A stretch of DNA of 64,000 nucleotides, taken from the NCBI RefSeq assembly GCF_001717465.1, contig NZ_CP017074.1:2384873-2448872 (forward strand). The letters are read 5' to 3'. Made by a program: the position numbers and the translations under genes. This document shows positions 31,746-49,375 of the stretch, one piece after another. The notes under the pieces were generated by a model, which was not told the origin of the DNA, searched no databases, and saw only the letters and a list, made by a program, of their open reading frames with translations. The stretch's first letter is position 1. Each line of letters opens with the position of its first letter. Source of the DNA: Luteimonas sp. JM171 (GTDB lineage Bacteria; Pseudomonadota; Gammaproteobacteria; Xanthomonadales; Xanthomonadaceae).

Positions 31746-31822
31746 TGCGGGGTGGAGCAGTCTGGCAGCTCGTCGGGCTCATAACCCGAAGGTCGCAGGT
31801 TCAAATCCTGCCCCCGCTACCA
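31746..31822 (+). tRNA. Initiator tRNA-Met (CAT), phage attachment site
   Basis: 77 nt. Anticodon loop CTCATAA in a stem with three consecutive G-C pairs (GGG/CCC), and an unpaired first acceptor position (U1 facing U72): both are hallmarks of initiator rather than elongator tRNA. T arm GCAGGTTCAAATCCTGC, encoded CCA. The 3' half is shared with the last codons of the phage integrase, marking it as the left end (attL) of the prophage. Confidence 0.95.
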
Positions 31823-33305
31823 CAGTTATCTGCGACCGCGAAGCGGCGATCTCGGCAACGAGGTCGCCGTTTTCTTTTGTCACGGTGGCGGTGCCGATCA
31901 GGGTGGCCACCGCCTCGCGGGCGCGCGTGTTGCCCCGGGCGCGGTTGCCCAGGTCCGCCACCAGCGCCTGGTAGCGCTCGCGGGCGCGCGGCAGGATCCG
32001 CGCGGGTTCGACCGCCGCGGCAGCAGCGATCTCGCGTTCGGCGTCGGCCACGGCCGCCTCGGCTGCCTGCAGGGCCGCCTTGGTGCTGGGCGTGATGATG
32101 CCTTGGCGGATGGCGGCCATGATGTTGTCGCGCTCCCGCTGGGCGCCCTGCAGCCGCCGGCGCGCGGCGGCTGTGTCGGGTGCCTGGCGCTGCAGCGCGG
32201 CCTTGACGGCCCGCTGGAACCGCTGGAACGCGTCGTCGGAGAGCAGCTGCTCGCGGATCCCGGCGAGCATGGCCGCCTCAGCGTCCCGGATCGGGACGTG
32301 CACCGGCTCCCTGCAGGTGCCGCGATCCTTGGCCCTGGCGCAGCCGTAGCGGTAGCGGTCGACCACCACCAGCGGGCCGCCGCAGCAGCCACAGCGGAGC
32401 AGGCCGGAGAGCAGGTGCCGCGGCGGCCGGCCGGAGTTGGCCGTACCGGGGCGCTTCCTGCCGTTGATCAGCTGCTGGGCGGCTTCCCACTGCTCCGGCG
32501 TCACGATCGCGAGCTCGGGGCACTCCGTCACCACCCATTCCGACTCCGGGCGCTCCTGGCGGATCCGGCGCCCGGTTTCCGGGTGCTTCACCCACCGCGA
32601 GCGGTTCCAGATCTGGCGGCCGACGTAGATGGGATTGGCCAAGATGCCGATGCCGCGGCGCGGATCCCCACGGATGGCGGTGAGCGCCCAGGTGCCACCG
32701 CGCGGGGAGGGCACGCCCTCAGCGTTCAAGGCCTTGGCGATCTCGCGTGGGGAGCGGCCGGCGATGAAATCGGCGTAGATCCTGCGCACCACCGCCGCCT
32801 CGGCTTCATCGATCGCGCGCTCGCCCACGCCGGCCACCTGGTAGCCGTAGGGCAGCCCGCCGGCGCTGGCGCCCGCGAGGGCGCGGCCGGCCTGGCCGCG
32901 GTGGGTCTTTTCGGCCAGGTCATCCAGGTAGAGCTCCGACATCAGCCCGCGCAGACCGACGTCGGCCTTGTGCGACTTGCGGCCGGTGTCCACGCCGTCG
33001 CTGACGCCAATCAGGCGGACGCCGGCGAACGTGAGCCGGCGCACTGCCTGCTGGCACTCGACGGAGTCCCGCGACAGGCGCGAGAGGTCATCCACCAGGA
33101 TGACGTCGAAGCGGTGGGCGGCCTCGAGCAGGGCACGGTAGCCGGGTCGGTCCTGGCGAGCTCCGGAGATCGCGGCATCGGTGAAGACCTCCGGCGCGCG
33201 CCAGCCCTCGCGTGTGGCGTAGGCCCGGCAGTTGCGCAGCTGGTCTTCCAGCGACGCCTCGCGCTGGGCGTCGGAGCTGTAGCGGGCGTAGGCGGCAACG
33301 CGCAT
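31779..33305 (-). CDS. int: Large serine recombinase / phage integrase
   Basis: 508-residue site-specific recombinase. Residues 1-140 form the resolvase-type catalytic domain, with the nucleophilic serine in YARYSSDAQ near the N-terminus and the family motif VDDLSRLSRDSVECQ. A recombinase domain follows (GGLPYGYQVAGVGERAIDEA; AEGVPSPRGGTWALTAIRG), then a zinc ribbon (LLRCGCCGGPLV ... YGCARAKDRGTCREP) and a C-terminal coiled coil. The reading frame enters the tRNA-fMet gene antisense: the final residues GAGFEPATFGL are encoded by the tRNA 3' half and the stop codon falls in the anticodon loop. It is the promoter-distal gene of the leftward phage operon. Confidence 0.93.
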   Translation of the reverse strand: MRVAAYARYSSDAQREASLEDQLRNCRAYATREGWRAPEVFTDAAISGARQDRPGYRALLEAAHRFDVILVDDLSRLSRDSVECQQAVRRLTFAGVRLIGVSDGVDTGRKSHKADVGLRGLMSELYLDDLAEKTHRGQAGRALAGASAGGLPYGYQVAGVGERAIDEAEAAVVRRIYADFIAGRSPREIAKALNAEGVPSPRGGTWALTAIRGDPRRGIGILANPIYVGRQIWNRSRWVKHPETGRRIRQERPESEWVVTECPELAIVTPEQWEAAQQLINGRKRPGTANSGRPPRHLLSGLLRCGCCGGPLVVVDRYRYGCARAKDRGTCREPVHVPIRDAEAAMLAGIREQLLSDDAFQRFQRAVKAALQRQAPDTAAARRRLQGAQRERDNIMAAIRQGIITPSTKAALQAAEAAVADAEREIAAAAAVEPARILPRARERYQALVADLGNRARGNTRAREAVATLIGTATVTKENGDLVAEIAASRSQITVVAGAGFEPATFGL

Positions 33306-33314
33306 GCGCGGACT

Positions 33315-33458
33315 CTAGGCCGCCTTGCGGTCGTGTGGAAGCGGGTGATTTTCACCCTGGGCGCCGGAATCGGCGTCATTGCTGGCCAGCTCGCGCAGAT
33401 AATCCTCCACGGCAAGCTCGGCCAAAACGTTGATCAGCGTGGTGAGGGGGTCAGTCAT
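33315..33458 (-). CDS. Small hypothetical phage protein (47 codons)
   Basis: 46-residue acidic protein (begins MTDPLTTLINVLAELAVEDY) between the integrase and the 118-residue gene. Its ATG overlaps the upstream stop as ATGA and its stop is 9 bp before the integrase start, which suggests translation within the leftward operon. No family recognised; a small excision-control protein is conceivable from position only. Confidence 0.55.
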   Translation of the reverse strand: MTDPLTTLINVLAELAVEDYLRELASNDADSGAQGENHPLPHDRKAA

Positions 33459-33811
33459 CCGAAAAGGTCTCCTTGTCCTGAGGGGCGCGCCCTCACGGCC
33501 TTGAAAAGCTGGAAGCCCCAACGCCGGTCGTGGAAATCCCGGCCGGACTCCGACCACACGCCTGGCCCGCGCGGCCGCAGGCGCAAGCCAGCGTTGCCGT
33601 CGCATCGGTAGCCGTCGTCAAATGGCCTGCCGTCCTTCCAGCCCCATCGGCGGTACCGGACCAACGGCAAGCCAGGCCAGCCGTTGCCCATCGCTTGCGG
33701 ATGCACGGCCAGCACTTCCGCGCAGTACCGGCGGCCAACAGGCCACAGGAACGTGCCGATTGGGGGCATGTGGTCGAACATCCAGGTGCCACGCGGCGGA
33801 GCGTCATGCAT
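33455..33811 (-). CDS. Hypothetical protein downstream of the DGR reverse transcriptase
   Basis: 118 residues, Trp/Gly/Arg-rich (WPVGRRYCAEVLAVHPQAMG; RRWGWKDGRPFDDGYRCDG). No family recognised. Start overlaps the RT stop and its stop overlaps the next start, so it is part of the same tightly coupled operon. It could be an accessory DGR gene or an unrelated early phage gene. Confidence 0.6.
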   Translation of the reverse strand: MHDAPPRGTWMFDHMPPIGTFLWPVGRRYCAEVLAVHPQAMGNGWPGLPLVRYRRWGWKDGRPFDDGYRCDGNAGLRLRPRGPGVWSESGRDFHDRRWGFQLFKAVRARPSGQGDLFG

Positions 33812-35168
33812 CGCGCGCCTCCGGAATCTTGATGGAGACGGCGCGGCGCTCCTGGTGGTGCTGGAAGCGCCGCGGCTTCAGGGCGGCGGCCAGCCATGGG
33901 AACCGCTGCCCCAGGCGCCGCCGCAGGCGATGGCTGCTGGCGTGCCGCATGTGCCCGCCGTAGCTGGCCACCCGGGCCTGCAGTTCCCGCAGCTGGGCCG
34001 GGGTGGCGCGGATGCGGCCGGCGCGCACGTGGGCGCCTTCCCATTCGGCCAGGGCCTGCATGGCGTGGCCCACGACGCGCCGCCGCACCAGCGTGTGCGT
34101 GGGGCGGATGACGTAGCCGAGGAAGTCCAGGCCGTCGGTGAGCTGCCGCAGGTGCGGCTCGGGCTTGAGCCTGAGGTTCAGGCGGTCGGCGATGAAGCCT
34201 TCGATCTGCGCCTGCCACGCCTGCAGCTGGGCGCGGTCATGGTGGAACAGGACGAAGTCGTCCACGTAGCGGATGTAGCGGCGCGCCTTGAGCGTGTGCT
34301 TGGCGAACTGGTCGAGTTCGTTGAGGTAGACGTTGGCGAAGAACTGGCTGCTGAGGTTGCCGATCGGCAGGCCACGCCCGGGCGGTGCGTTCTCAAGGCG
34401 CTTGTGGGGCGGCACCTGGACGCGCTCGGCGGCGGTGGCGCGGTAGTCGACGCCGGCATGCAGCGGGGAGCGCCGGAGCAGGGCGTGGGTGGCCTGCTGG
34501 ACTGCGTCCGGGGAGCCGGCGCGCTCCATGCGGGTGCGCAGCAGGCGCCACAGGATGCGGCGGTCGATGCTGTTGAAGAAGTTGTGGATGTCCAGCTGCA
34601 GGTACCAGCCGCCGCCCTGGCCGCTGTGCACCTGGCGCACGAAGCTCTGGGCGCGGCGCACGGCGGCATGGCTGCCCTTGCCGGTGCGGTTGGCGTAGCT
34701 GTCGTGGATGAAGGCCGGCTCGAACAGGGCCTCCAGCTGCGGGACCAGCCAGTGGTGCACCACGCGGTCGGCAAAGTCCGGCGCGTGGATCTCCCGCGCC
34801 TTGGGCCGGGTGGCGATGAAGCAGGTGGAGCGGCGCGGCGCCCAGGTGCCATCGGTGAGCTCGCGCTCGAGCTGCAGCAGCTGGCCGATCCAGTCGCGCT
34901 CGAAGCGCAGCTGGTTGTGGCTGGGCACCTTGCTGCGGCGCGCCCGCCGCCAGGCCTGGTGAAGCGCCCGGAAGGTCGGCGCCCCCGCACCCTGAAACTC
35001 ACCGGAACGGCGCACCGCGAGGGCGAACCCGTCGTTGTTGCGGTGGTTGTTGTTGACGTTGCCGTTGTTGAAGTTGACGTTCCACGCGGCCGACGAAGAC
35101 CAGGCAGCCGCCTCCCCGGACACTTGCGACCCGGCTCCCCAGCCGAAGGGGTAGGAGAGCTTCGTCAT
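33804..35168 (-). CDS. DGR reverse transcriptase (frame contains the template repeat)
   Basis: Retroelement-type reverse transcriptase that would copy the template-repeat RNA into mutagenised cDNA. Domain motifs: LQLDIHNFFNSID (catalytic Asp, D193), LPIGNLSSQFFANVYL (269-275 is IGNLSSQ, the [IVL]GxxxSQ form typical of DGR RTs), YIRYVDDFVLFHHD (YVDD box, 301-304) and GLDFLGYVIRP. From the ATG at 35168 the frame gives 454 residues; residues about 20-56 are the in-frame translation of the template repeat (Asn-rich), so the first 56 residues look like a DUF1566 C-terminus. The ATG overlaps the avd stop as ATGA. An internal GTG start after the template is possible; no other ATG exists before the RT core. 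Group II intron and retron RTs are unlikely given the SQ motif and the repeats. Confidence 0.93.
   Translation of the reverse strand: MTKLSYPFGWGAGSQVSGEAAAWSSSAAWNVNFNNGNVNNNHRNNDGFALAVRRSGEFQGAGAPTFRALHQAWRRARRSKVPSHNQLRFERDWIGQLLQLERELTDGTWAPRRSTCFIATRPKAREIHAPDFADRVVHHWLVPQLEALFEPAFIHDSYANRTGKGSHAAVRRAQSFVRQVHSGQGGGWYLQLDIHNFFNSIDRRILWRLLRTRMERAGSPDAVQQATHALLRRSPLHAGVDYRATAAERVQVPPHKRLENAPPGRGLPIGNLSSQFFANVYLNELDQFAKHTLKARRYIRYVDDFVLFHHDRAQLQAWQAQIEGFIADRLNLRLKPEPHLRQLTDGLDFLGYVIRPTHTLVRRRVVGHAMQALAEWEGAHVRAGRIRATPAQLRELQARVASYGGHMRHASSHRLRRRLGQRFPWLAAALKPRRFQHHQERRAVSIKIPEARDA
35001..35110 (-). repeat. DGR template repeat (TR)
   Basis: 110-bp segment whose coding-sense strand has a central AAC-rich tract (10 AAC codons, one CAC, one GAC; 22 adenines, the only adenines in the repeat) flanked by constant GC-rich ends. 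It matches two variable repeats at 35638-35747 and 36103-36212. The identity stops on the coding-sense 3' side at GGT, where TR reads GAG and both VRs read CAG, the expected IMH/IMH* difference. It lies between avd and the RT core. Confidence 0.95.
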
Positions 35169-35608
35169 GATTTGGCCCCCTCGGGGGCGGCCCGGGTACT
35201 CAGTTTCTGGCCGCGCTGCACGACGCCGCTGCGGGCTTGTGCACTCTGGGCCTTGGGGTGCTGTTGCTGGCGGTGCCAACCGCCTGCCTGCGCGCCAAGC
35301 GCATCAGCCTGGCGTGCAAGGTGCTCGAACTGACGGAAGCTGCCGAAGGCGCGCAGCAGCTTCGCCGTCTGGATTTCCTGCTTGAGCTCGTCGACCTGCC
35401 ACACCAGCCGGGCCACCCAATACCGCGTGCGGTCGCGCTCGCGCCACGCGCGGTTGGCCGCGTTGTAAGTACGCCGGGCCTGCTGCCGCAAATCCGCGCC
35501 CACCTGGTAGCGGTGATAGCGCGGAAAGCGGCGCACGGCCTGCTCGATGTCAACGAGCAGGCGCTCGCAGGCCTTGATGATGGGCGGGGGCTGGTAGCGG
35601 GACGCCAT
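35165..35608 (-). CDS. avd: DGR accessory variability determinant (Avd-like)
   Basis: 147-residue basic, mostly helical protein. Residues 1-95 fit the Avd/23S rRNA-intervening-protein four-helix bundle (PIIKACERLLVDIEQAVRRF; HRYQVGADLRQQARRTYNAA; WVARLVWQVDELKQEIQTAK). Avd forms a pentamer that binds RT and template RNA and is needed for mutagenic retrohoming. The last 45 residues are Gln/Ala-rich and of no recognised family. Its location between the targets and TR-RT and the 4-bp overlap with the RT frame support the call. Confidence 0.85.
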   Translation of the reverse strand: MASRYQPPPIIKACERLLVDIEQAVRRFPRYHRYQVGADLRQQARRTYNAANRAWRERDRTRYWVARLVWQVDELKQEIQTAKLLRAFGSFRQFEHLARQADALGAQAGGWHRQQQHPKAQSAQARSGVVQRGQKLSTRAAPEGAKS

Positions 35609-35631
35609 GATCGACTCAGGCCAAGGTCAAA

Positions 35632-36057
35632 CTACTGACCGGAACGGCGCACCGCGAGGGCGAACCCGCCGCCGTGGCGGCGGTAGTAGCTGACGCTGCC
35701 GATGTAGAAGCCGACGAGCCACGCGGCCGACGAAGACCAGGCAGCCGGGGTCTTGCTCCAGTACCAGTCGCTCTGGATGTCCCGGAAGAAATCCGTGTCG
35801 ATGGCCGGGTTGTAGCGGCTGCGGTCGATGAGCAGCTGCAGCTCGTCGATGGTGGGCAGGTCCCAATCGCTGTGACCGGTGAGCGTGAGCGCCTTGCAGG
35901 CGGCCTCGCAGTCGGCGTGCGGCACGTCTTCGTCCACCACACTGGTGGCGCTGAAGGTGAGGCCGTGCTCGGGCAGGTGGACGGCCACCCACTCGGTGGC
36001 GTCGTCGGGCAGATGGGCGCCGTCGGCGCCGATCTTGATGTACTTGGGTTGGGACAT
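35632..36057 (-). CDS. DGR target protein 2, DUF1566/C-type-lectin-like
   Basis: 141-residue protein whose last 37 residues are encoded by variable repeat 2. The DUF1566 (Lcl C-terminal, FGE-sulfatase-like) pattern is seen: HSDWDLPTIDELQLLIDRSR, NPAIDTDFFRD, WYWSKTPAAWSSSAAW, then the varied stretch LVGFYIGSVSYYRRHGGG and constant FALAVRRSGQ at the C-terminus. No signal peptide or membrane segment. The ATG at 36057 is preceded by AGGAGAA, and its first codons (MSQPK) and leader match those of the gene at 36714-37406. The varied residues would sit on the ligand-binding face of the lectin-like fold. Confidence 0.9.
   Translation of the reverse strand: MSQPKYIKIGADGAHLPDDATEWVAVHLPEHGLTFSATSVVDEDVPHADCEAACKALTLTGHSDWDLPTIDELQLLIDRSRYNPAIDTDFFRDIQSDWYWSKTPAAWSSSAAWLVGFYIGSVSYYRRHGGGFALAVRRSGQ
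35638..35747 (-). repeat. DGR variable repeat 2 (VR2)
   Basis: 110 bp aligned without gaps to the template repeat. 15 mismatches, all at template adenines: 12 of 12 AAC/CAC/GAC codons changed. Ends at the last-but-one codon of the target gene. Confidence 0.95.
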
Positions 36058-36096
36058 GGTGGGTTCTCCTGGGAAGCGGAAGGGCAAAGGGACCAA

Positions 36097-36678
36097 CTAC
36101 TGACCGGAACGGCGCACCGCGAGGGCGAACCCGTCGCTGCTGCGGCGGTAGCCGAGGACGCCGCCGCCGTTGAAGACGACGCCCCACGCGGCCGACGAAC
36201 ACCAGGCAGCCGGGGTGCTGGTCCAGTGCCAACGGGCCTTCACGCGAGGGAAGGCGGTGGTGTCGATGGCCGGCTCGTGCCGGGTGTCGTCGACCAGGCC
36301 GGCGAGTTCGGCGCGGGTGGGCAGGCGCCAATCGTCATGACCGAGCAGGCGCAGCTGGCGGCACCGCTCGATGCAGTGCTCCTGGGTGATGCCGTCGTCT
36401 TCGTCGGCGGGGTCGCCCAGGGACTCGACGGACCACATCAGGCCGGTGGTGTTGTCGATCACCGCCACGTGGTCGGTGCGCGGGCTGTCGGCCTGGAGGT
36501 AGGTGCCATCGCCCAGCACCCGGGTGAAGCGGTGGCCGGCGGCGAGCATGGACTCGGCCACGGCAGCGCGGTGCGCTTCGAGCGAGACGGGCTCGTGGTG
36601 CTTGGGGTTGATCGTCAGGCGGGCGGCCGCATCGATGGTGATGTGGGTGTCGCCGACTTTGATCGACAGTTGGGTCAT
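36097..36678 (-). CDS. DGR target protein 1, DUF1566/C-type-lectin-like
   Basis: 193-residue protein. The N-terminal 85 residues (MTQLSIKVGDTHITIDAAAR ...) are unlike target 2. The DUF1566 part has TGLMWSVESLG, GHDDWRLPTRAELAGLVDDT, EPAIDTTAFPRV, WHWTSTPAAW and then the VR-encoded end (GVVFNGGGVLGYRRSSDG, FALAVRRSGQ). ATG at 36678 with AGGAG upstream; a TTG 13 codons earlier is less likely. Lies directly upstream of target 2 (39-bp gap) in the same operon. No secretion signal visible. Confidence 0.9.
   Translation of the reverse strand: MTQLSIKVGDTHITIDAAARLTINPKHHEPVSLEAHRAAVAESMLAAGHRFTRVLGDGTYLQADSPRTDHVAVIDNTTGLMWSVESLGDPADEDDGITQEHCIERCRQLRLLGHDDWRLPTRAELAGLVDDTRHEPAIDTTAFPRVKARWHWTSTPAAWCSSAAWGVVFNGGGVLGYRRSSDGFALAVRRSGQ
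36103..36212 (-). repeat. DGR variable repeat 1 (VR1)
   Basis: 110 bp aligned without gaps to the template repeat. 17 mismatches: 16 at template adenines, one C-to-G change (plus-strand position 36200) near the coding-sense 5' end that turns a Ser into Cys. Confidence 0.95.
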
Positions 36679-36713
36679 GGGCGTGTGCTCCTGGTCGTGA
36701 ACGGAATGGGCGT

Positions 36714-37406
36714 TCAAGCTGGCACCGCCTGGGCGTCAGCCTGCTCTGTCGTGCCGCAGGGCGGCTCTGGGGGCGGCGGTTCCTGGGTGGCTGGCGTGGG
36801 GATGGTGGCCTCGAGCGCGGCGCGGCTGTCGATGTCGCGCAGCGGCATGACCAGGCCGTAGAGATCCTGGCCGATCGTGAACAGCACCGCGCCGGCGCTG
36901 TCGCCGCGGTGGTACATGCGCACCGGTGCGGTCTTCGCGGCCGTCGCCTGCACGCGCTGCAGCTGGCCAAGTGCCAGCGCGGCGTCGGGGCAGCCCGCGT
37001 GCCAGCCTTCCAGGCTGCCAAGTAGATCGTGCACATCGGGGAACTTGCCCTCAATGAGCGGCGCCGGGCTGATGTAGCTGGGCGCGCCGCCGGCGTCGAC
37101 GATGAAGGTGCGGCCCTCCGGGGTCACGCGCACAAAGTCGCCGCCGGCCAGGTGGCGGGCGTGCTCGCGCTTGTTGATCGGCAGGATCACCGGGTGGTCG
37201 GCGTGGCCCTCGCGATCGCGCGCGGCCAGCAGGGCGGTGCCATCGGTGGCCACGGCCACCACGCCTTCATCCACCGGGATCACGGCCACGCCGCGCAGGT
37301 ACCAGCGGATATCCTTGACCGCGGCGAACGGCAGGACGGTGGCCACCGCGCGGGCGGTGATCGACACGGCCGCGTCTTCGGCGGGGATTGCCTTGGGTTG
37401 GGACAT
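36714..37406 (-). CDS. Putative sliding-clamp-like phage protein
   Basis: 230 residues. The segment DIRWYLRGVAVIPVDEGVVA followed by VATDGTALLAARDREGHADH resembles the strand-turn pattern of DNA polymerase III beta (clamp) domains (VATDGHRLA), and GGAPSYISPAPLIEGKFPDV resembles the clamp substrate loop; this is a weak, motif-level resemblance. The C-terminus is Pro-rich. It starts with the same leader and first five residues as DGR target 2. Upstream neighbours are small early genes. Could be an unrelated early protein. Confidence 0.5.
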   Translation of the reverse strand: MSQPKAIPAEDAAVSITARAVATVLPFAAVKDIRWYLRGVAVIPVDEGVVAVATDGTALLAARDREGHADHPVILPINKREHARHLAGGDFVRVTPEGRTFIVDAGGAPSYISPAPLIEGKFPDVHDLLGSLEGWHAGCPDAALALGQLQRVQATAAKTAPVRMYHRGDSAGAVLFTIGQDLYGLVMPLRDIDSRAALEATIPTPATQEPPPPEPPCGTTEQADAQAVPA

Positions 37407-37435
37407 GGGTTCTCCAGGTGCCGCCGGTGGCGGCG

Positions 37436-37642
37436 TCAGTCGATGTCGTCGATGTGCGGGATGCGCGGATCGCCGCGCCATGCCGGGATGGCTTGGGATA
37501 CGGGCCGCGAGAGGTCGGCCGGCTGCAGTTGCTGCACCTGGCCGCCTGCCGACAGGAATCGCTCGAGGTCGGCGGCGAGCCGGCCGCGCGCGCGATCCAT
37601 GGCGCGCACGGTGTTCAGGTGTATGGAGACCGCGGCCGTCAT
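37436..37642 (-). CDS. Small hypothetical phage protein
   Basis: 68 residues (MTAAVSIHLNTVRAMDRARG start), helical, no family recognised. Its ATG overlaps the stop of the membrane-protein gene upstream as ATGA, indicating translational coupling. Confidence 0.55.
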   Translation of the reverse strand: MTAAVSIHLNTVRAMDRARGRLAADLERFLSAGGQVQQLQPADLSRPVSQAIPAWRGDPRIPHIDDID

Positions 37643-37905
37643 GGGCTGGCCACCATCGCCACCACGATCGGCAGCACCACGATGGCCACCGCGATCGCGC
37701 ACAGCAGGCACTTGATGGCGCGGCTAGGGGGCGGGGCGAAGTTGGGCGTGGTGCGGCTCACGTTGTCGCACACGGCCCGGGCAAGCGCCCGGGTGTTCAG
37801 TTCATCCATGCGGGCACTCCCTGGGCCGCGCTCAACGGCGGCGAAGGCGGAAAACAGCGCCACCACGGTGGTGGCGCCGGCGAGAAACCACAGCGCGCCG
37901 GCCAT
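37639..37905 (-). CDS. Small phage membrane protein
   Basis: 88 residues with two predicted membrane helices, one at the N-terminus (about 3-24, WFLAGATTVVALFSAF) and one at the C-terminus (about 66-86, CLLCAIAVAIVVLPIVVAMV). Function unknown; position in the early leftward operon is where superinfection-exclusion or host-takeover proteins often lie, but nothing specific supports that. Confidence 0.55.
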   Translation of the reverse strand: MAGALWFLAGATTVVALFSAFAAVERGPGSARMDELNTRALARAVCDNVSRTTPNFAPPPSRAIKCLLCAIAVAIVVLPIVVAMVASP

Positions 37906-38129
37906 CAGCGCGGCACCTGGGGCAGGCCGCGCAGCACGCGCAGGCCGCTCTGGATGGCCCAGCCGGTGCTGGCACCGTCATGCAGCTGGGCCATGGCGGT
38001 GTTCACCGCGCGGGTGCGGATGGCCTCGCTTGCGTGGATGCTGGTGGCGCGGGCGTTGATGGCGCGGCGCACGCTCTGCAGCACGGCCGGGCGGGCGGGC
38101 AGGCGGATGACGTTGGGCGTGGTGGCCAT
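37905..38129 (-). CDS. Small hypothetical phage protein
   Basis: 74 residues (MATTPNVIRLPARPAVLQSV), basic and helical. No family recognised. Adjacent to the membrane-protein gene with a 1-bp overlap. Confidence 0.5.
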   Translation of the reverse strand: MATTPNVIRLPARPAVLQSVRRAINARATSIHASEAIRTRAVNTAMAQLHDGASTGWAIQSGLRVLRGLPQVPR

Positions 38130-38130
38130 C

Positions 38131-38388
38131 TCAGCCTCCTACCGTGATGCGGGCGGTGGCGGGGCGGCCGGTGCTGGCGACGGCGCAGTGCATGGCCGCC
38201 AGGGCGTCTTCGATTTCCGCGAGGTCGCGGATGTCGTCGCCGGTGCGCAGCAGCAGGTCGATTTTCTCCTGGCCGGTCACATTTTCCGCAGCCCATTTGG
38301 CGCTGCGTTCGCGCTCGGCCTTCAGGGCAATCACCGCCAGGCGCAGCAGGCCGATGCGGGTGGTGTCGAGGATGAGCTCAGCCTTCAT
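38131..38388 (-). CDS. Small hypothetical phage protein
   Basis: 85 residues (MKAELILDTTRIGLLRLAVI), strongly helical, low arginine for this GC content, preceded by a good GGGAGG ribosome site. No family recognised. Confidence 0.6.
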   Translation of the reverse strand: MKAELILDTTRIGLLRLAVIALKAERERSAKWAAENVTGQEKIDLLLRTGDDIRDLAEIEDALAAMHCAVASTGRPATARITVGG

Positions 38389-38647
38389 GGCCACCTCCCG
38401 GCGCTTTGGGCGGCGCGATGTCGGTGTTGAGCTCGCCCGGCATGTCGTCGCCGGCGAGCAGTTCCGCCTCGCGCTGCGCCGCGGACAGCGCGGCGGACTT
38501 GGCCAGCGCCTCGCTGGGCTGGATGTAGCCCTCTGCCGGATACGGGTCCGGCTCGGGCGGCATGAACCGGCGGGCCGCGGCACTGGGCGGCGGCAGCGGC
38601 GATCGCAGTTCCGCGCGATCGTGCGGGACCTGGCGGCGGGCGGCCAT
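38378..38647 (-). CDS. Small hypothetical phage protein
   Basis: 89 residues (MAARRQVPHDRAELRSPLPP start). The C-terminal half ELLAGDDMPGELNTDI is acidic. Overlaps the next gene's start by 11 bp. No family recognised. Confidence 0.5.
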   Translation of the reverse strand: MAARRQVPHDRAELRSPLPPPSAAARRFMPPEPDPYPAEGYIQPSEALAKSAALSAAQREAELLAGDDMPGELNTDIAPPKAPGGGHEG

Positions 38648-38648
38648 G

Positions 38649-38873
38649 TCAGCGGGCCTCCCATGCGAGGTCGCGGGCGCGGGCTGTGACGCGAGCGCTG
38701 AGCACGCGCAGCCGGCGGGTGCGGCGCTTCTGGTTGCGGCTGTGCTCGCCCTGGCTGCGGGCGCGCAGGGTTTCACCCCGGGTGTGATCGGCGCTGCTGC
38801 AGCGCCTCAGGCAGTTGGTGGCCGCCGGCGGCAGGGCCTGGCGGTGATCGTCTGCAGATCCACGGTTGTGCAT
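38649..38873 (-). CDS. First gene of the leftward operon, hypothetical
   Basis: 74-residue Arg-rich protein (MHNRGSADDHRQALPPAATN). No family recognised. It begins about 45 bp downstream of the predicted leftward promoter start and ends 1 bp before the next ATG, so it is the promoter-proximal early gene if expressed. Confidence 0.45.
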   Translation of the reverse strand: MHNRGSADDHRQALPPAATNCLRRCSSADHTRGETLRARSQGEHSRNQKRRTRRLRVLSARVTARARDLAWEAR

Positions 38874-38895
38874 GGCGCTCTCCCCGTTTCAGCGA

Positions 38896-38917
38896 ACGTG
38901 CCGGGTAGTCGGCACGT
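38896..38917 (-). promoter_or_regulatory. Perfect 8-bp inverted repeat in the leftward leader
   Basis: ACGTGCCG / CGGCACGT with a 6-base loop, no T run. Located between the leftward promoter and the first gene, so it would fold in the mRNA leader; a protein site on DNA is equally possible. Confidence 0.45.
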
Positions 38918-38923
38918 GAGCGG

Positions 38924-38953
38924 AGAGTAAAGCATTGCTTTCCTAAGTGTCAA
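38924..38953 (-). promoter_or_regulatory. Leftward early promoter (PL)
   Basis: Perfect TTGACA -35 at 38953-38948 on the minus strand, 18-bp spacer, TACTCT -10 at 38929-38924. Both hexamers are overlapped by 15-bp palindromic operators, so the promoter should be silent when the repressor is bound. It would drive all genes from 38873 to the integrase, DGR included. Confidence 0.7.
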
Positions 38954-38964
38954 GCAGTGCTTTA
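38928..38964. promoter_or_regulatory. Left operator pair (two repressor-type palindromes)
   Basis: Two 15-bp sites, TAAAGCATTGCTTTC (38928-38942) and TCAAGCAGTGCTTTA (38950-38964), centre-to-centre 22 bp. They share the consensus AAGCANTGCTT with the three sites in the CI/Cro gap. Confidence 0.8.
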
Positions 38965-39068
38965 GATGGCAGCCGATGTTCGTTGGTAATGTTCACGCGA
39001 CCCGGGTGGGCAGGGTTGCGGCGGTTTAATGCCGATGATCGGCGTCGGCTTACAAGGGGAGTTCACCG

Positions 39069-39539
39069 TTGGCGGAGCGCAATAGCGGCTGTTTCGGCTT
39101 GATTGTGGCGGCGGTCGCCGTCTTGGCATTGCTCATCTTCTTGGGCGGGCGCGACGCTGATCGCGCTGGCAGCCCAGACTCGCGGAAGCCGGACCCGCCA
39201 CGCCTGGCACAGGCTGGCTACTTCAAGGACTCGCAGGGCAACCGTATTTTCACCCTGGAGATGCCGCCGGGCTTCAGCGAGTCCCAGGCACTGGCTGACG
39301 CACGTCGCAGGCCTTACACCAGTGGGCAGGTGACCGGCGCGTACTATTTCGACCACCGCACCAGCATCCCGCGCGATGGCATCACCCGCGCGGGAAGCTT
39401 CTTCGCCGCAAACGACGTGCTGTACGAAACTGCGGGCCTTTCGGCTTGGCGCTATGCCTTTGTGAAAGGCCCGGACGGCGGAGAGCAATTCGTAGATTGC
39501 ACCCGCGATCGGGAATCCGGCCTCTGCAGGGGCGACTAG
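39069..39539 (+). CDS. Membrane-anchored hypothetical protein, possible lysogenic-conversion gene
   Basis: 156 residues with one N-terminal membrane helix (about 8-26, CFGLIVAAVAVLALLIFLGG), then a soluble, probably periplasmic domain (FKDSQGNRIFTLEMPPGFSE; GAYYFDHRTSIPRDGITRAG). Two late cysteines (VDCTRDRESGLCRG) may pair. No family recognised. TTG start at 39069 with AGGGGAG upstream. It stands alone between the left operator region and the convergent repressor gene, the usual place for genes expressed from a prophage. Confidence 0.6.
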   Translation: MAERNSGCFGLIVAAVAVLALLIFLGGRDADRAGSPDSRKPDPPRLAQAGYFKDSQGNRIFTLEMPPGFSESQALADARRRPYTSGQVTGAYYFDHRTSIPRDGITRAGSFFAANDVLYETAGLSAWRYAFVKGPDGGEQFVDCTRDRESGLCRGD

Positions 39540-39603
39540 TTCCAAGCAGGGCCATCAAACCTCGCGCTCGGATCGGACCCAGACCAGCCGGAGCGGTGGG
39601 GTT

Positions 39604-40062
39604 CTACGCGGTTTTTTGAGCGGCGTGGGCGAGTGCCTGGGCCGCGTGCAGCTCGAGTAGCTCGATCCCGGCCACCAGTGCCGGGTTCCCTTCGACGGCT
39701 TGGTTTCTTGTGGTCGGATCCAGCAGGAGTAGATCCACCGCGTGTTGGATCTCAGGACTCGCCTGGCTGTAGGCCGCCCATAGTGTCTCGGCCGCCACGC
39801 TTCGTCGACGCGCTGGGGGCAGGTCGCCGTACGGTGGCGGCGCCTCGGATTCGACTCGAAAGCTCTCGCCATTACCCGCATCTGGCATGAACGTCGACAA
39901 GGGGACGCCGGTGATCCGTGCCAGCGCCGGAAGCCGACGCTTGTCGATCCGGCCTGTGCGTAGCCAGCCGGTGATTGCCTGCTCAGTCACGTCGAGCTCG
40001 GCCGCGATGTAGGCGTGTGTGTGGCCGCTTTGTTCGATCGCGGCCCGGATCGCCTTGCGCAT
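39604..40062 (-). CDS. CI-like phage repressor (HTH)
   Basis: About 152 residues. The N-terminal helix-turn-helix is clear: AIRAAIEQSGHTHAYIAAEL, DVTEQAITGWLRTGRIDKRR. The C-terminal half is helical and lacks a recognisable LexA/S24 peptidase, so it is not a self-cleaving type by eye. Start uncertain: the ATG at 40062 places a GATAAT hexamer 7 bp upstream (a leaderless mRNA, as for lambda cI from PRM); earlier ATGs at 40080 and 40098 would put an operator inside the coding region. Divergent from the Cro-like gene, with three operators between or at the starts. Confidence 0.78.
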   Translation of the reverse strand: MRKAIRAAIEQSGHTHAYIAAELDVTEQAITGWLRTGRIDKRRLPALARITGVPLSTFMPDAGNGESFRVESEAPPPYGDLPPARRRSVAAETLWAAYSQASPEIQHAVDLLLLDPTTRNQAVEGNPALVAGIELLELHAAQALAHAAQKTA

Positions 40063-40072
40063 GGCTTCATTA

Positions 40073-40152
40073 TCAAGCATTGCTTGATAGTTCCGCATTT
40101 GCGGCGGGGGTGGTAGAAAGCAACGCTTGACCTAACCTAAAGCGATGCTTTA
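40073..40152. promoter_or_regulatory. Right operator region (three repressor-type palindromes)
   Basis: Three 15-bp sites: TCAAGCATTGCTTGA (40073-40087), GAAAGCAACGCTTGA (40116-40130) and TAAAGCGATGCTTTA (40138-40152). The last two are 22 bp apart centre to centre, exactly as in the left pair. Confidence 0.85.
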
Positions 40153-40156
40153 GGAT
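40127..40156 (+). promoter_or_regulatory. Rightward early promoter (PR)
   Basis: TTGACC -35, 18-bp spacer and TAGGAT -10, each overlapped by an operator. The predicted start is within a base or two of the Cro-like ATG at 40163, so that mRNA may be leaderless. Confidence 0.6.
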
Positions 40157-40162
40157 TCGGGA

Positions 40163-40387
40163 ATGAATGCAATTTCGAGAGTTGTGGAGGGGATCGAAGG
40201 GGGCCAAGCGGCGCTCGCTAGAACCCTGCATGTCACTCCCCAGTTCGTGAGCCAGTGGGTGACCGGGAAAAGACCGGTCCCTCCGCGTGCGGCGCTGGCG
40301 ATCGAAGAGATGTTCGGCGTGTCGCGCCATGAATTACGGCCGGACGTCTTTGGCCCGGTGCCTGGCAAGCAAGCGGAGGCGAGCTGA
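40163..40387 (+). CDS. Cro/YdaS-like helix-turn-helix regulator
   Basis: 74 residues. HTH pattern GGQAALARTLHVTPQFVSQWVTGKRPVPP with a C-terminal EEMFGVSRHELRPDVFG, as in YdaS/Cro-type phage regulators. Opposite the CI-like gene across the three-operator region, first gene of the rightward operon. Confidence 0.82.
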   Translation: MNAISRVVEGIEGGQAALARTLHVTPQFVSQWVTGKRPVPPRAALAIEEMFGVSRHELRPDVFGPVPGKQAEAS

Positions 40388-40388
40388 G

Positions 40389-40562
40389 ATGCGGCGCATG
40401 GAACAGCACCGCCACCAGGCGGCCCTGCAGGTCCCGCATGGGCGAAAGTCGAACGGCGTTAGCGTTGATGTTGGCCATAGCTGCCCATTCTTTGGCCCCA
40501 CGTGGGGAATCAGGGGGATCATTCCGTCCCCCTGGTTCCCCAAGGGCGGGGCGCAGGCATGA
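40389..40562 (+). CDS. Small hypothetical early protein
   Basis: 57 residues (MRRMEQHRHQAALQVPHGRK). Starts 1 bp after the Cro-like stop and overlaps the CII-like start, so it fits the operon, but composition gives little support and no family is recognised. Confidence 0.35.
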   Translation: MRRMEQHRHQAALQVPHGRKSNGVSVDVGHSCPFFGPTWGIRGIIPSPWFPKGGAQA

Positions 40563-40954
40563 CGGACGGCGTGCACCAGCTCACCTTGAGCCTTGAGCCG
40601 GGCCTCGCTGTGCGGCATCGCACGCTCAAGGATTGCGTGGCTGCGGGGATCTTCCAGCGCGGCGTGGTGAACGTGGCCGGCCGCATCGATCGCCAGCCCT
40701 CGCACCTGAGCGAGGCGCTCAGCGGCGGCGACCGCCGCAAGTTCGACGTCGACGACCTCGAGGCCTACATCCGCGAGTTCAACGACACCACGCCCATCCT
40801 CTACCTGGCCGCCAAGTACCTGCGCGACCCGGCCGTGACGCAGCAGGAGGCGCTGTCGAAGCTGGCCTCCCTGGCTGACCTGCTGCCGGGGCTGATGGCC
40901 GCGGCCGGGCTGGATCCGCGCGCGGCGGCTGTTGCGCGGGGGCGGGCGCGTTGA
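40559..40954 (+). CDS. CII-like phage regulatory protein
   Basis: 131 residues. The segment TLKDCVAAGIFQRGVVNVAG, then DRQPSHLSEALSGGDRRKFD and VDDLEAYIREFNDTTPILYL, reads as a DNA-binding regulator that recurs after cro in lambdoid phages of Xanthomonadales and Pseudomonas. It occupies the cII position (second or third gene after PR, before replication genes). Assignment is by motif style and position. Confidence 0.55.
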   Translation: MTDGVHQLTLSLEPGLAVRHRTLKDCVAAGIFQRGVVNVAGRIDRQPSHLSEALSGGDRRKFDVDDLEAYIREFNDTTPILYLAAKYLRDPAVTQQEALSKLASLADLLPGLMAAAGLDPRAAAVARGRAR

Positions 40955-41163
40955 TGGCCCGCTACCGGCGCCCCTGGGAACGCCTGCGGCCGGTGGTGGT
41001 CACCGCCGCCAGCCAAGCCGGCATGCAGGCCGCGCTGGCGGCGCTGCGTGAGCCGGCCCTAGAGCCGGTGACACCGGAGCACTGCCTGGCCCAGCGCGAG
41101 CAATGGCGCCGCGAGGATGAGGCCCGCCGCGCCGCGCAAGGCTGCCTGGAGTTACGCCAATGA
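40954..41163 (+). CDS. Small hypothetical phage protein
   Basis: 69 residues (MARYRRPWERLRPVVVTAAS). Overlaps the CII-like stop. No family recognised; the charged C-terminus (EQWRREDEARRAAQGCLELR) is helical. Confidence 0.5.
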   Translation: MARYRRPWERLRPVVVTAASQAGMQAALAALREPALEPVTPEHCLAQREQWRREDEARRAAQGCLELRQ

Positions 41164-41360
41164 GTTACCTAAACGCCCTCGCCAAGCTGACGGCTGCCGA
41201 GGCCGATCTCCTGCGCGCGAAAGCGAAGGCTGTGGGCTGCCCGCTGGTCAGCCAGAGCCTTTCGGCGCGCGCCAGCCTGAAAGCTCTTCAGTTAAAGCAA
41301 ATCGCAGATCGTCAAAAGACATCGCGTTTACTTGGGAGGGAAGCCAGTGATGCTTCTTGA
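41160..41360 (+). CDS. Small hypothetical protein overlapping an antisense gene
   Basis: 66 residues (MSYLNALAKLTAAEADLLRA). Start overlaps the upstream stop as ATGA, which favours translation, but the 3' half (41248-41360) is antisense to a better-looking gene. It may end earlier in relatives. Confidence 0.35.
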   Translation: MSYLNALAKLTAAEADLLRAKAKAVGCPLVSQSLSARASLKALQLKQIADRQKTSRLLGREASDAS

Positions 41361-41520
41361 GCAGGTAGAACCGCACCGCTTCGTGCCCGCTCAGGCCCGA
41401 CCATTTGTGCTTCTCGGCGAGTTCATCGCCAAACAGCTCCAGCTGTGCGTTCAGCTGGCCATTGGCCTCGTGATAGCGCTGGCGCACCTGGTGCATGGTC
41501 TCTGCTTTTTTCTTGCTCAT
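41248..41520 (-). CDS. Hypothetical protein on the opposite strand of the early operon
   Basis: 90 residues with a protein-like composition (MSKKKAETMHQVRQRYHEAN; LFGDELAEKHKWSGLSGHEA; VRFYLLKKHHWLPSQVNAMS), rich in Lys and His, unlike GC-driven spurious frames. Good ribosome site CGGAGGCC before the ATG. The C-terminal half pattern SFDDLRFALTEEL suggests a small conserved helical family seen in mobile elements; function unknown. It is transcribed against the rightward early operon. Confidence 0.6.
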   Translation of the reverse strand: MSKKKAETMHQVRQRYHEANGQLNAQLELFGDELAEKHKWSGLSGHEAVRFYLLKKHHWLPSQVNAMSFDDLRFALTEELSGWRAPKGSG

Positions 41521-41624
41521 GTCGGCCTCCGGTGGTGGTTGTGCTCCTTGTCAAGCGCAGCCTACCACCGGCAGGCCGGCATCTTGTTCGTGCAACTCCG
41601 GGAGGGACCGCCGGGGGGCTGAGG

Positions 41625-42677
41625 ATGAAAAGGGATCAACTGAAAAGGGGAAGGGTCGACGTCCAGGCGTTGAGGGCCAGGCTCGATATCGTCGAGGTGG
41701 TTGGCGCCTATGTGCAGCTCAAGAAAGACGGGCGCGAGTACAAGGCGTGCTGCCCGTTTCATGATGAGCGCACGCCATCGTTCTACGTGTCGCCGGCCAA
41801 GGGGTTCGCGCATTGCTTCGGTTGCGGTGCCCACCACGATGCCATCGGCTTTGTGCAGCGGTATGAGGGCATCGAATTCCTGGAGGCCTGCGGGCGCCTT
41901 GGCGCGGACCGCTTTGCGCCTTCGCCGGAGGCTGTACCCACGCGGGTGGCGCTGCCGCCGCCGGATGCGGTGTGGGTGCCGGTGCTGCCGGTGCCGGACC
42001 ATGCGCCGGAGCTGATGCAGGACAGCGGCTGGACGGTGCCGCTGTGGAACCCGAAGCGTGAGCGCTTCACCCGCATGAAGCCGGAGACGGTGTTCGACTA
42101 CCGCGACCACGACGGCGCGCTGCTGGGCTACGTGCTGCGCTGCCTGTTCAAGGATGGCGGCAAGTTCACGCCCACCATCACCTGGTGCATCGGGCCGGAC
42201 GGCGCGATGCAGTGGGTGGTGCAGCACTTCCCGCGGCTGCGCCCGCTGTACGGGCTGGATGCCCTGGCTGCCAAGCCCGACGCGCCCGTGCTGCTGCCCG
42301 AGGGCGAAAAATGCCGCGCGGCTGGCGCTGGCGCGTTGGCGATGTACGCGGTGGCCAGCTGGCCCGGGGGCGGCAACGCCATCCGCCACGTGGATTGGTC
42401 GCCGCTGGCCGGCCGCGACGTGGTGCTGTGGCCGGATGCGGACCCGCCCGGCATGGCCACCATGGTGGGCAGCGTGGACGTGCGCGGGATGCTGGCCAAG
42501 GAAGGCATCGTGCACCTGCTGCACAAGGCCGGCGTGCGCTCCATGCGCCTGGTGGATCCGCACGGCATGCCGAAAGGCTGGGACATCGCCGACGCCGTGG
42601 CCGAAGGCTGGACGCCGCGGCAGATTGCCACCTGGGCGGCCCAGCGCGTGCAGGACGTGGAGCTGGTGCCGGCATGA
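41625..42677 (+). CDS. Phage DNA primase with CHC2 zinc finger and Toprim domain
   Basis: 350 residues. The N-terminal zinc finger has ligands C43, H46, C64 and C67 (CCPFHDERTPSFYVSP; HCFGCGAHHDAIGF). A Toprim-like domain follows, with the glutamate in LLPEGEKCRAAGAG and DxD in VLWPDADPPG. It would synthesise primers for phage DNA replication. The ATG at 41625 comes after a long non-coding-looking frame. Directly coupled to the helicase gene by a 4-bp overlap. Confidence 0.85.
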   Translation: MKRDQLKRGRVDVQALRARLDIVEVVGAYVQLKKDGREYKACCPFHDERTPSFYVSPAKGFAHCFGCGAHHDAIGFVQRYEGIEFLEACGRLGADRFAPSPEAVPTRVALPPPDAVWVPVLPVPDHAPELMQDSGWTVPLWNPKRERFTRMKPETVFDYRDHDGALLGYVLRCLFKDGGKFTPTITWCIGPDGAMQWVVQHFPRLRPLYGLDALAAKPDAPVLLPEGEKCRAAGAGALAMYAVASWPGGGNAIRHVDWSPLAGRDVVLWPDADPPGMATMVGSVDVRGMLAKEGIVHLLHKAGVRSMRLVDPHGMPKGWDIADAVAEGWTPRQIATWAAQRVQDVELVPA

Positions 42678-44041
42678 GTACTCAACGGCGCCGGCTCCAG
42701 GTGGTGGCATCCGATGGCGGCAGCACGGCCGGCGGCGGGCAGGGCGGCGGCGAGCTGGGCGATGCAGCGTGGAAGCAAGCGCTGGTGCTCAACCGCGAGG
42801 GCGCAGTGGTGGCATCGCCACACAACTTGCTGCTGATCCTCGAGCACGATGAGGATCTGCACGGCCTGTTCTGGCTCGATGAGTTCGGCAACCGCGTGGT
42901 GGTGTCGCGCGATCCGCCGTGGCACGGCGGCAGCCGTGATGAGTTCACCGAGGTGGATGCCATCGAGCTGGCCGCCTGGCTGGGGCACCCCAGCCGCTAC
43001 GGCATGGTGGTGAAGACCGGCCTGGTGCTGGAAGCGGTGGAAGCAATCGCCCGCCGTCGCCGGAGGCATACGGTTCGCGAGTACTTGCAGTCGCTCGAAT
43101 GGGACGGCAAGCCGCGCGTGGGCCGCATGTTCGTCGACCTGTTCGGCGCTGAGGAAACCCCGTACCACCTGGGCGTGGGGCCGTGCTTCATGGTGTCGGC
43201 CGTCTCACGTGTGCTGTGGGCGGATCCGCGCCAGCCGTCGAAAGGATCGAAGGTCGACTTCATGGTGGTGCTGGAAGGCGGGCAGGGCGCAGGCAAGACC
43301 ACGGCCGTGCTCGAGCTGTTCGGTGCCGAGTGGTACGCGGAAGCGACCGAGTCACCCGCGCACAAGGATTTCTATCAGACCCTGCGCGGCCGCTGGGGCG
43401 TGGAGATCGGCGAGATGGACAGCTTCAACAAGGCCGACGTGGCCAAGGTGAAGCAGGCGATCACCACGCGCTTTGACGTTTATCGCCCCAGCTACGGGCG
43501 CACGGCGCGAAGCTTCCGCCGCGAGTGCGTGTTCGTCGGCACCGTGAACAAGGATGACTACCTGCGCGACGAGACCGGCGCGCGGCGATTCCTGCCTGCC
43601 AAGGTTGGGCGCATCAACATCCCGCGCCTGGTGGAAGAGCGGGACCAGCTCTGGGCGGAAGCGGTGCACCTCTTCAACCAGGGCTTCCACTGGTGGGATC
43701 TACCCGAGGGCGCGCAGCGCGAGCAGGACGATCGATTCAGCGAAGACGTCTGGACCGAGCGCGTGCTGCGATGGATCACCGGCAAGGCAAGCGACAAGCA
43801 ATACGATCACCTGGGCGCCAGCGAGCGCGGCAAGAACGGCGAGCCGCTCGAGTTCTCTACCGGCGACGTCCTGACCTTTGCACTGCACGTTGATCCTGGC
43901 CGCCAGGACCGCGCCGCCGCGATCCGCGTGGGGTCGATCCTCGCGCGCCTGGGCTGCAAGCATTACCGGCCACGGTCGCGCTCTAACCGCGTGCGGGTCT
44001 ATTTCCTTCCGGCCGATGGTCAAGGGGGGTCCGATGGGTAG
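42674..44041 (+). CDS. VirE-type phage replicative helicase/ATPase
   Basis: 455 residues of the virulence-associated-E family of SF3-like ATPases. Walker A GGQGAGKTT (202-210), Walker B region WGVEIGEMDSF, sensor VFVGTVNKDDYLRDETGARR with an arginine finger, as in phage helicases paired with a CHC2 primase. The N-terminal part (about 35-160, DAAWKQALVLNREGAVVASP) is the usual lead-in domain. Acts with the upstream primase on phage replication. Confidence 0.85.
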   Translation: MSTQRRRLQVVASDGGSTAGGGQGGGELGDAAWKQALVLNREGAVVASPHNLLLILEHDEDLHGLFWLDEFGNRVVVSRDPPWHGGSRDEFTEVDAIELAAWLGHPSRYGMVVKTGLVLEAVEAIARRRRRHTVREYLQSLEWDGKPRVGRMFVDLFGAEETPYHLGVGPCFMVSAVSRVLWADPRQPSKGSKVDFMVVLEGGQGAGKTTAVLELFGAEWYAEATESPAHKDFYQTLRGRWGVEIGEMDSFNKADVAKVKQAITTRFDVYRPSYGRTARSFRRECVFVGTVNKDDYLRDETGARRFLPAKVGRINIPRLVEERDQLWAEAVHLFNQGFHWWDLPEGAQREQDDRFSEDVWTERVLRWITGKASDKQYDHLGASERGKNGEPLEFSTGDVLTFALHVDPGRQDRAAAIRVGSILARLGCKHYRPRSRSNRVRVYFLPADGQGGSDG

Positions 44042-44300
44042 CGCGGTCCGATGTGGTCCATACGGGTGGTCCAATCGAACAACCGCGCAGTTGCGGGGTT
44101 GGTCCAATGGTCCAATCACTTTTAGGGATTTCGCCCGCGTAAGAGAGCGGCAGCCCTTCATCACCTGTGCGATCAAAAACACAATGGACCAATTGGACCA
44201 TTGGACCAGCCCAACAGCGGCGCGGGGTTCGAGCGGTCCGATGCCCGGTCCAATCGGCTGGCGGTGTGGACCGGGGGGCGATGAAGGGCGGGTGGTCCGC
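44028..44300. repeat. GGTCCAAT/GGTCCGAT repeat cluster
   Basis: About a dozen copies of the octamer GGTCC(A/G)AT or its complement: direct at 44028, 44045, 44068, 44101, 44109, 44235 and 44247; inverted ATTGGACC at 44192 and 44200; a palindromic GGACCAATTGGACC around 44186. Directly downstream of the primase-helicase pair. It looks like an iteron or origin-type region; a weak reading frame passes through it. Confidence 0.6.
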
Positions 44301-44414
44301 CGGGCCGCGGGTCCTTCCTGGACCCCCGCCCATGCGACGGCTGACTCGCGAAACCTCGCTAGGTTTTGTGGTGGGGAGTTGGTGAACTTGGTGAACTTTG
44401 GGGGGGCAGGATGA
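44034..44414 (+). CDS. Doubtful reading frame across the repeat cluster
   Basis: 126 codons. ATG overlaps the helicase stop and the stop overlaps the terminase start, which is the spacing of a real gene, but the product is mostly translated repeat (GWSNRTTAQLRGWSNGP; FCGGELVNLVNFGG) and shows no family. The end contains two tandem TTGGTGAAC units. Confidence 0.25.
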   Translation: MGSAVRCGPYGWSNRTTAQLRGWSNGPITFRDFARVRERQPFITCAIKNTMDQLDHWTSPTAARGSSGPMPGPIGWRCGPGGDEGRVVRRAAGPSWTPAHATADSRNLARFCGGELVNLVNFGGAG

Positions 44415-47257: not shown

Positions 47258-47266
47258 CGCTTTTGC

Positions 47267-47303: not shown

Positions 47304-47316
47304 TAGCGTCCTTCCC

Positions 47317-49325: not shown

Positions 49326-49326
49326 G

Positions 49327-49363: not shown

Positions 49364-49375
49364 GAGCATGTCGTT

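Follow-up and report, generated by a model that had tools for sequence, protein, structure and literature searches.

A diversity-generating retroelement in a Luteimonas prophage with its template repeat inside the reverse transcriptase reading frame

We describe a diversity-generating retroelement (DGR) in the genome of Luteimonas sp. JM171, within a stretch of 64,000 nucleotides (nt) that we call the window (contig NZ_CP017074.1, positions 2,384,873 to 2,448,872; coordinates below are those of the window). Judged by its sequence, the minus strand of 33804-36678 is a complete DGR, with two Lcl_C target genes, avd, a template repeat (TR) and a DGR-type reverse transcriptase (RT). The genes follow one another in the order target gene 1, target gene 2, avd and RT. 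A first-pass annotation, made from the letters of the sequence, had placed a complete and intact element here; the parts that it named are all present by sequence, and all frames are open. The TR, however, which it took for a separate element between avd and the RT gene, turns out to be codons 20-58 of the RT gene itself. The features are as follows (VR, variable repeat; aa, amino acids):

36097..36678, minus strand: target gene 1, 193 aa, Pfam PF07603 (Lcl_C) at 8.5e-25, with VR1 at its 3' end
36099..36212, minus strand: VR1, 114 nt
35632..36057, minus strand: target gene 2, 141 aa, Lcl_C (PF07603) at 1.2e-20, with VR2 at its 3' end
35634..35747, minus strand: VR2, 114 nt
35165..35608, minus strand: avd, 147 aa, its stop overlapping the RT start as ATGA
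35198..35204, minus strand: ACTGAGT motif within the 3' end of avd
35175..35188, minus strand: hairpin-forming GCCCC-CGAG-GGGGC, 6 nt upstream of the RT ATG, its 3' arm G-rich and Shine-Dalgarno-like
33804..35168, minus strand: DGR RT gene, 454 aa, codons 20-58 being the TR; PHROG RT match at 2e-102
34997..35110, minus strand: TR, 114 nt, in frame within the RT gene, with ten AAC codons
35000, minus strand: site near the repeat 3' end with G in the TR and C in both VRs; the RT reads GE, the targets GQ-stop

The 114-nt repeat is present in three copies, the TR and the two VRs, each VR ending at the stop codon of its target gene. The first-pass annotation had seen two near-identical repeats of 110 bp at the ends of the target genes and a third, adenine-rich copy. 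VR1 differs from the TR at 18 positions, 16 of which are TR adenines, and VR2 at 16 positions, 15 of them TR adenines. That is, of the 23 adenines among the 114 nt of the TR, 16 are changed in VR1 and 15 in VR2, against two and one, respectively, of the 91 non-adenine positions. The chance of such an adenine bias is 2.5e-12 for VR1 and 3.5e-12 for VR2 (hypergeometric). The two VRs differ from each other at 16 positions, and here too 15 of the 16 are TR adenines. Among the non-adenine changes, a G-to-C near the repeat 3' end is common to both VRs; VR1 adds one C-to-G, and VR2 has no other. Sequence comparison of the TR and VR 3' ends gives this constant G-to-C difference followed by a loss of similarity, where a distinction of IMH* from IMH (initiation of mutagenic homing) would be expected. 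Because of the single G-to-C difference, the RT reads GE where the targets read GQ-stop: the RT N-terminus is MTKLSYPFGWGAGSQVSGEAAAWSSSAAWNVNFNNGNVNNNHRNNDGFALAVRRSGEFQG, and the targets end in ...FALAVRRSGQ-stop. A search for additional VRs over the window plus 20 kb detected none, and across the whole genome it gave the same three places again.

BPP-1 DGR RT (8ub7) is the closest solved structure to the RT both by sequence (E 7.7e-35) and by fold (Foldseek TM 0.90, target-normalised). In a tree of 93 rows, made with a quick method and leaving out RT cores of fewer than 230 residues, the RT groups with those of other TR/VR-bearing loci, apart from a group II RT (L172; L plus a number is our label for a surveyed locus). 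By tree and structure match alike, the RT does not fall outside the DGR clade. The avd product is identified by PHROG 3206, 'Avd protein of DGR' (2.4e-15); its scores for Pfam bAvd (22.6 bits) and NCBIfam Avd (35.2 bits) do not reach the curated cut-offs, and a PDB sequence search gave no match. The two targets score 74 and 88 bits for Lcl_C, a domain of C-type-lectin type (by sequence match). In its AlphaFold model, target 1 has a predicted local distance difference test score (pLDDT) below 50 over most of the VR. For the RT, a model built with 81 sequences gives pLDDT 81-98 per ten-residue block from residue 61 onwards (last block 56) and below 50 for residues 1-60, which are predicted to be disordered. 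We rejected as a DGR part the 118-aa open reading frame (ORF) at 33455-33811 (minus), directly after the RT gene, which had no family in three libraries and no match in the fetched loci. On the other side of the element, the gene at 36714-37406 (minus) weakly resembles a DNA polymerase sliding clamp (PHROG 947, and Pfam PF02767 under its cut-off) and, also weakly, a RusA-labelled PHROG.

The TR lies wholly within the RT gene and is read there in the same frame as the VR in the targets. This layout is found well beyond the window. We collected 160 loci, which with the window comprise 105 in a close clade, defined by an RT identity of about 55% or above and holding 99 distinct RT sequences (some loci having come from both collections), and 56 more distant ones; 27 of the 161 had no RT motif in a first pass and were recovered later by profile. 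TR/VR pairs were found in 101 of the 105 clade loci, window included; the four without a pair, which were dropped, are L133 and three loci whose contigs are cut just upstream (L107, L123 and L164). In all 101 the TR sits in the open frame of the RT, and in all 101 the frame runs from the TR to the RT core without a stop, over a median gap of 16 nt (range 3-54); in the window the core starts about 20 nt past the TR. An avd match was obtained by tblastn in 101 of 104 fetched clade loci. The clade forms one branch of the tree (28/28 sampled rows), with a Shimodaira-Hasegawa-like approximate likelihood ratio (SH-aLRT) of 100.

A non-redundant set of 70 loci (below 93% RT identity) was chosen from the 91 with an ATGA start (see below), dropping 21 RT sequences as near-copies. 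Most of the 70 share a peptide ahead of the TR, MT.PRY..GC.AGSQ, with in-frame length changes; in L146 and L157 the stretch at this place is short. In L024, L142 and L145 the TR is read in another frame and gives a threonine-rich tail, with the same ATGA start and with the RT frame regained. Our best reading is that translation stays continuous and that the sequence of the TR peptide is unconstrained. Among the best 120 of 7,488 RT homologs (labelled P below), 110 have at least eight asparagines in their first 70 residues and three carry a whole Lcl_C domain. Seven are poorer in asparagine, comprising two with a diversified TR, four that are just poorer and one without the region. In P0028 and P0070 the TR peptide is altered at asparagine positions in the manner of a VR, as if the template itself had been overwritten. 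In P0043, P0059 and P0108 the whole Lcl_C domain is fused in frame before the RT, and VR-like sequence takes the place of the TR; these are possibly products of VR-TR recombination that removed avd, or assembly artefacts. As for method, the longest upstream open frame proved unreliable as a test of TR versus VR frame in GC-rich DNA (it called the window 'False'), and peptide alignment was used instead. Nor did we accept as sufficient evidence that the TR is crossed by an open frame, given that this holds for BPP-1 too.

Outside the close clade the picture is mixed. In the seven rows nearest to it in the tree, the TR is outside the ORF in four and in an open frame in two (L030 and L037), and the seventh row is L178, which had been fetched as a presumed other RT and fell among the DGR rows. 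The 56 more distant loci comprise 33 with a stop between TR and RT, eight that are open and 15 that gave no TR. Five of the eight open loci (L036, L038, L045, L054 and L063, with 37-48% GC) belong to a group of six with support of 100, and in these five the TR is also in the RT frame and read in the VR frame. L036, L045 and L054 even have GE in the RT against GQ-stop in the target; L065, the sixth member, has stops. Since this second group also has it, the in-frame layout may, on sequence, have arisen twice. Deep relations in the tree are unsure, because the method was quick, the outgroup branches are long and the deep branches are weak. The second group consists of Nitrospirota and others, and in L038 and L054 additional sequence, masked in L054, separates the TR from the RT core.

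Where, then, does the RT begin? In 91 of 95 loci tested, an in-frame ATGA upstream of the TR overlaps the stop of an open upstream frame of at least 90 codons; in the window, the stop overlapped by the RT ATGA is that of avd. Just ahead of the RT ATG lies the hairpin-forming sequence, whose pairs form in 67, 70, 70 and 67 of the 70 non-redundant loci, the outer pair being G-C in 52, A-U in 13 and G-U in two. Further upstream, within the 3' end of avd, CTGAGT is found 32-44 nt before the RT ATG in 68 of the 70. According to PMC12875486, a motif in the 3' end of the avd RNA of BPP-1 ends reverse transcription, and by analogy the ACTGAGT stretch could be its counterpart. We also considered, and set aside, a spacer-like RNA structure in the first RT codons: across 35 of the 70 loci, codons 65-115 gave only a weak excess of structure (mean z -0.75), and synonymous variation was not lowered in codons 65-90.

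The repeats also bear on activity. Nine loci share an identical TR over 104 nt (one Stenotrophomonas and eight viral contigs), and their 17 VRs are all different, the sole non-adenine difference in each being the constant G-to-C. The view of the first-pass annotation that the element was recently active is a reasonable one, given the few non-adenine TR/VR differences and the varied VRs of close kin, and activity itself is something that we infer. With the two VRs of the window carrying almost no change outside adenines, recent homing is likely in this element.

For this DGR with its in-frame TR, we consider it quite probable that one RNA serves as both RT message and template for mutagenesis; the complementary DNA (cDNA) is predicted to overwrite the 3' ends of two target genes of predicted lectin fold. 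In such a scheme, RT translation would start at the ATG upstream of the TR that overlaps the avd stop, and it would be coupled to avd: ribosomes finishing avd would melt the hairpin in which the G-rich 3' arm, a possible ribosome site, is otherwise hidden. The first 60 or so residues of the RT, translated template included, would form a disordered, asparagine-rich tail with no strict role, and the RNA would be contested between ribosomes and RT. As in the BPP-1 paradigm, the RT and Avd would make an error-prone copy of the TR, misincorporating opposite A, and this cDNA would then replace VR1 or VR2, with random bases at adenine positions. A more ambitious version is tentative and, to our minds, rather doubtful: that in this clade, and once more in the separate group with Nitrospirota, template and enzyme have merged into a single reading frame, that the RT is switched on only by ribosomes finishing avd, by way of hairpin and ATGA, and that their passage through the TR decides if a given RNA acts as message or as template, thereby controlling the mutation rate.

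Several observations weigh against this scheme. Four of the 95 loci tested lack the ATGA (L121, L125, L155, and L151, which has GTGA). The hairpin was predicted and counted on one and the same alignment, lies inside avd codons and is without a shuffled control; folding energy upstream of the ATG averages -10.3 against -9.9 for shuffles, being lower in 43 of 70 loci. A strict GAGG, GGAG or AGGA precedes the ATG in only 25 of 70 (68 if GGGG is allowed). The pre-TR region shows a weak codon-position signal (entropy 0.67/0.83/1.00, compared with 0.76/0.68/1.30 for RT codons 200-400). Its four-fold sites are unusually conserved (0.82 bits, and 0.83 in the TR, versus 1.33 in RT codons 91-430), so that part of the conservation is at the RNA or DNA level. 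Moreover, the TR of BPP-1 also has an open frame, and such frames can arise by chance in GC-rich DNA. The shifted frames represent at most two events, because L142 and L145 are sisters. Internal RT starts could also occur, since 65 of the 70 loci carry at least one ATG, GTG or TTG (ATG in five) between the TR start and the first RT helix. As regards homing, four other groups of near kin have VRs with 1-6 non-adenine differences from the TR, and one VR of L152 has more than six, with an apparent indel.

The element is carried by a prophage, as the first-pass annotation had proposed. Gene content confirms, and the insertion site supports, that the DGR lies in a tailed-phage prophage of about 33.7 kb between tRNA-Met and rimP:

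31746..31822, plus strand: tRNA-Met (CAT), left attachment site; matches in relatives mostly end at or near its 3' end
31779..33305, minus strand: serine integrase, its 3' end overlapping the tRNA gene; PHROG 95 at 1.6e-92
31823..64000, no strand: prophage body in the window, with terminase, portal, head, tape-measure and tail genes, probably continuing to about 65527
65509-65527 (window plus flank): right repeat resembling an attachment site, 17/19 nt of the tRNA 3' end

The DGR sits 2 kb inside the left end of this prophage. To its right come a repressor-like gene, a primase, a helicase, the terminase subunits and portal, head, tape-measure and tail genes (20 proteins were scanned, three of them without a match), and the DGR and the tail genes diverge in their direction of transcription. 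The tRNA region was matched in 41 of 41 genomes, most of the matches stopping at the tRNA 3' end or a few bases from it. Here rimP lies 174 nt beyond the right repeat, and in one of three relatives examined (L194) it lies 178 nt after tRNA-Met; in the other two, L195 and L196, it was not found in the roughly 1.5 kb examined beyond the tRNA. A close RT relative (E 1e-60 or better) occurs in 12 of 297 genomes of the family, its own included, and one of the 12 is a fragment; no other member of the genus among the 297 has one. Such a sporadic distribution is as expected for phage cargo. Among the structural genes, two neighbours on the plus strand (56480-57427 and 57664-58377) match overlapping parts of the structural family PHROG 687, which points to a duplication or a split gene.

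This setting raises the matter of what the targets do, and whether they serve the virion or the lysogen is a question separate from the mechanism of the retroelement. It is a real possibility, though one we would not favour, that they are soluble proteins made by the lysogen (e.g. variable intracellular sensors) and not host-recognition proteins of the virion. They are transcribed away from the tail genes, close to the integrase and early-type genes. Ten chosen neighbouring ORFs in seven relatives matched an integrase (2), transposition (2), ParB-like (2), methyltransferase (1) and terminase-like (1) function or no named function (2), with no tail family among the ten. By a crude hydropathy test, none of 120 listed homologs of target 1, out of 424 found, has a hydrophobic segment. 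Cytoplasmic DGR targets are, moreover, described for another system in PMC10907252. On the other hand, a virion protein needs neither a signal peptide nor a place in the tail operon, and according to PMC8144416 the phage-borne targets in DGR clades 1, 4 and 6 are for the most part predicted to be tail proteins. Neither target DNA nor avd-target DNA matched any of 50,697 phage records at E 1e-5; distant lectin-fold targets do exist among phages, as in Magia.

For the mechanism itself, the main alternative is that the TR lies within the ORF in name only. The RT would then start internally (e.g. at the GTG of codon 52, near the TR 3' end), and the open frame would be a by-product of high GC content and of a VR-like reading. 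BPP-1 offers a precedent, its TR being crossed by an accidental open frame and its annotated start lying beyond the TR; GTG codons do exist at positions 52 and 81 of the window RT, 65 of the 70 loci have some start codon from TR start to first RT helix, and in 33 of the 56 loci beyond the clade a stop separates TR and RT. We nevertheless consider this alternative unlikely. It is difficult to square with the in-frame ATGA overlap in 91 of 95 loci, with the five of 70 loci that have no ATG, GTG or TTG at all from TR start to first helix, and with the restored frame of L024, L142 and L145; in addition, an in-frame TR also occurs in the group of 37-48% GC.

That the peptide encoded by the TR is a working part of the RT (e.g. 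by binding Avd or by mimicking the target lectin domain) is very unlikely. The asparagine-rich start is widespread among the best 120 homologs, and P0043, P0059 and P0108 carry an in-frame fused whole Lcl_C domain. Yet residues 1-60 are predicted to be disordered, L024, L142 and L145 encode a threonine-rich tail instead, P0028 has lost asparagines in this region, and the fused forms seem to have arisen by VR-TR recombination and to lack an intact TR. Also very unlikely is that the element is complete but no longer active: a crude scan of the minus strand over 33300-40600 saw no sigma-70-like promoter, and in some RT homologs (P0028, P0070, P0043, P0059 and P0108) the TR is diversified or replaced, but here all frames are open, the TR is adenine-rich and there is almost no non-adenine difference between TR and VRs.

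How does this element compare with known systems? Like BPP-1 (mtd, avd, TR and brt), the window has targets with a 3' VR, an Avd-type gene, a TR and a DGR-type RT. The TR/VR differences are adenine-restricted in both (19 adenine and one other in the BPP-1 segment compared). In BPP-1, however, the TR lies outside brt, with 144 nt from the TR to the annotated brt start, whereas in the window the likely start is before the TR. The spacer between TR and RT folds in BPP-1 and recruits the RT-Avd complex, as reported in PMC12875486; no structured spacer of this kind was found here, the median distance from TR to RT core being 16 nt in 101 loci. That source also reports that BPP-1 lacks a clear ribosome site ahead of brt. 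A BPP-1-type hairpin after the VR was likewise not detected: perfect stems of at least 6 bp occur in 7 of 146 VR flanks, against 7.5 expected from shuffling (they occur in 18 of 70 TR flanks). Lastly, the BPP-1 target is a tail protein, mtd, and the targets in the window are small soluble Lcl_C proteins away from the tail genes.

Overlap between TR and RT ORF is in itself known since 2012 (PMC3521204). The arrangement catalogued there has the TR overlapping the 5' part of the RT ORF, as here. The window differs in that the TR is wholly in frame and continuous with an ATGA-coupled start, and that this is clade-wide. The DiGReF group 3 architecture, a TR overlapping the end of the RT ORF, also describes it (TR 34997-35110 inside RT 33804-35168). 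A Vibrio cholerae DGR (PMC6642488) is alike in that a single TR supplies the 3' VRs of two Lcl_C/DUF1566 targets; the portion of that paper available contains no discussion of where the TR stands in the RT frame. In the DGRs of Pseudomonas and Burkholderia phages (Cruim01, Magia, Haboob and LPPA56; L166-L169), whose RTs are about 40-42% identical to that of the window, the TR also lies in an open RT frame, with a gap of 12-31 nt. It is probably in another frame than the VR there, because in the RT frame it reads threonine-rich and not asparagine-rich. Our searches, which did not reach most subscription papers, turned up no description of a translated TR, of coupling between avd and RT or of a clade so defined.

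The mechanism of DGRs is known mainly from BPP-1, where the TR is outside the RT gene and a folded spacer recruits the enzyme. In a clade without the spacer, whose template is likely translated, recruitment of the RT and the balance between translation and reverse transcription must work another way. Annotators should be warned that the N-terminus of these RTs is translated template. Control of the mutation rate becomes testable by simple stop-codon and hairpin mutants and, if the idea is true, these elements would set their own mutation rate, a form of control absent from the BPP-1 paradigm.

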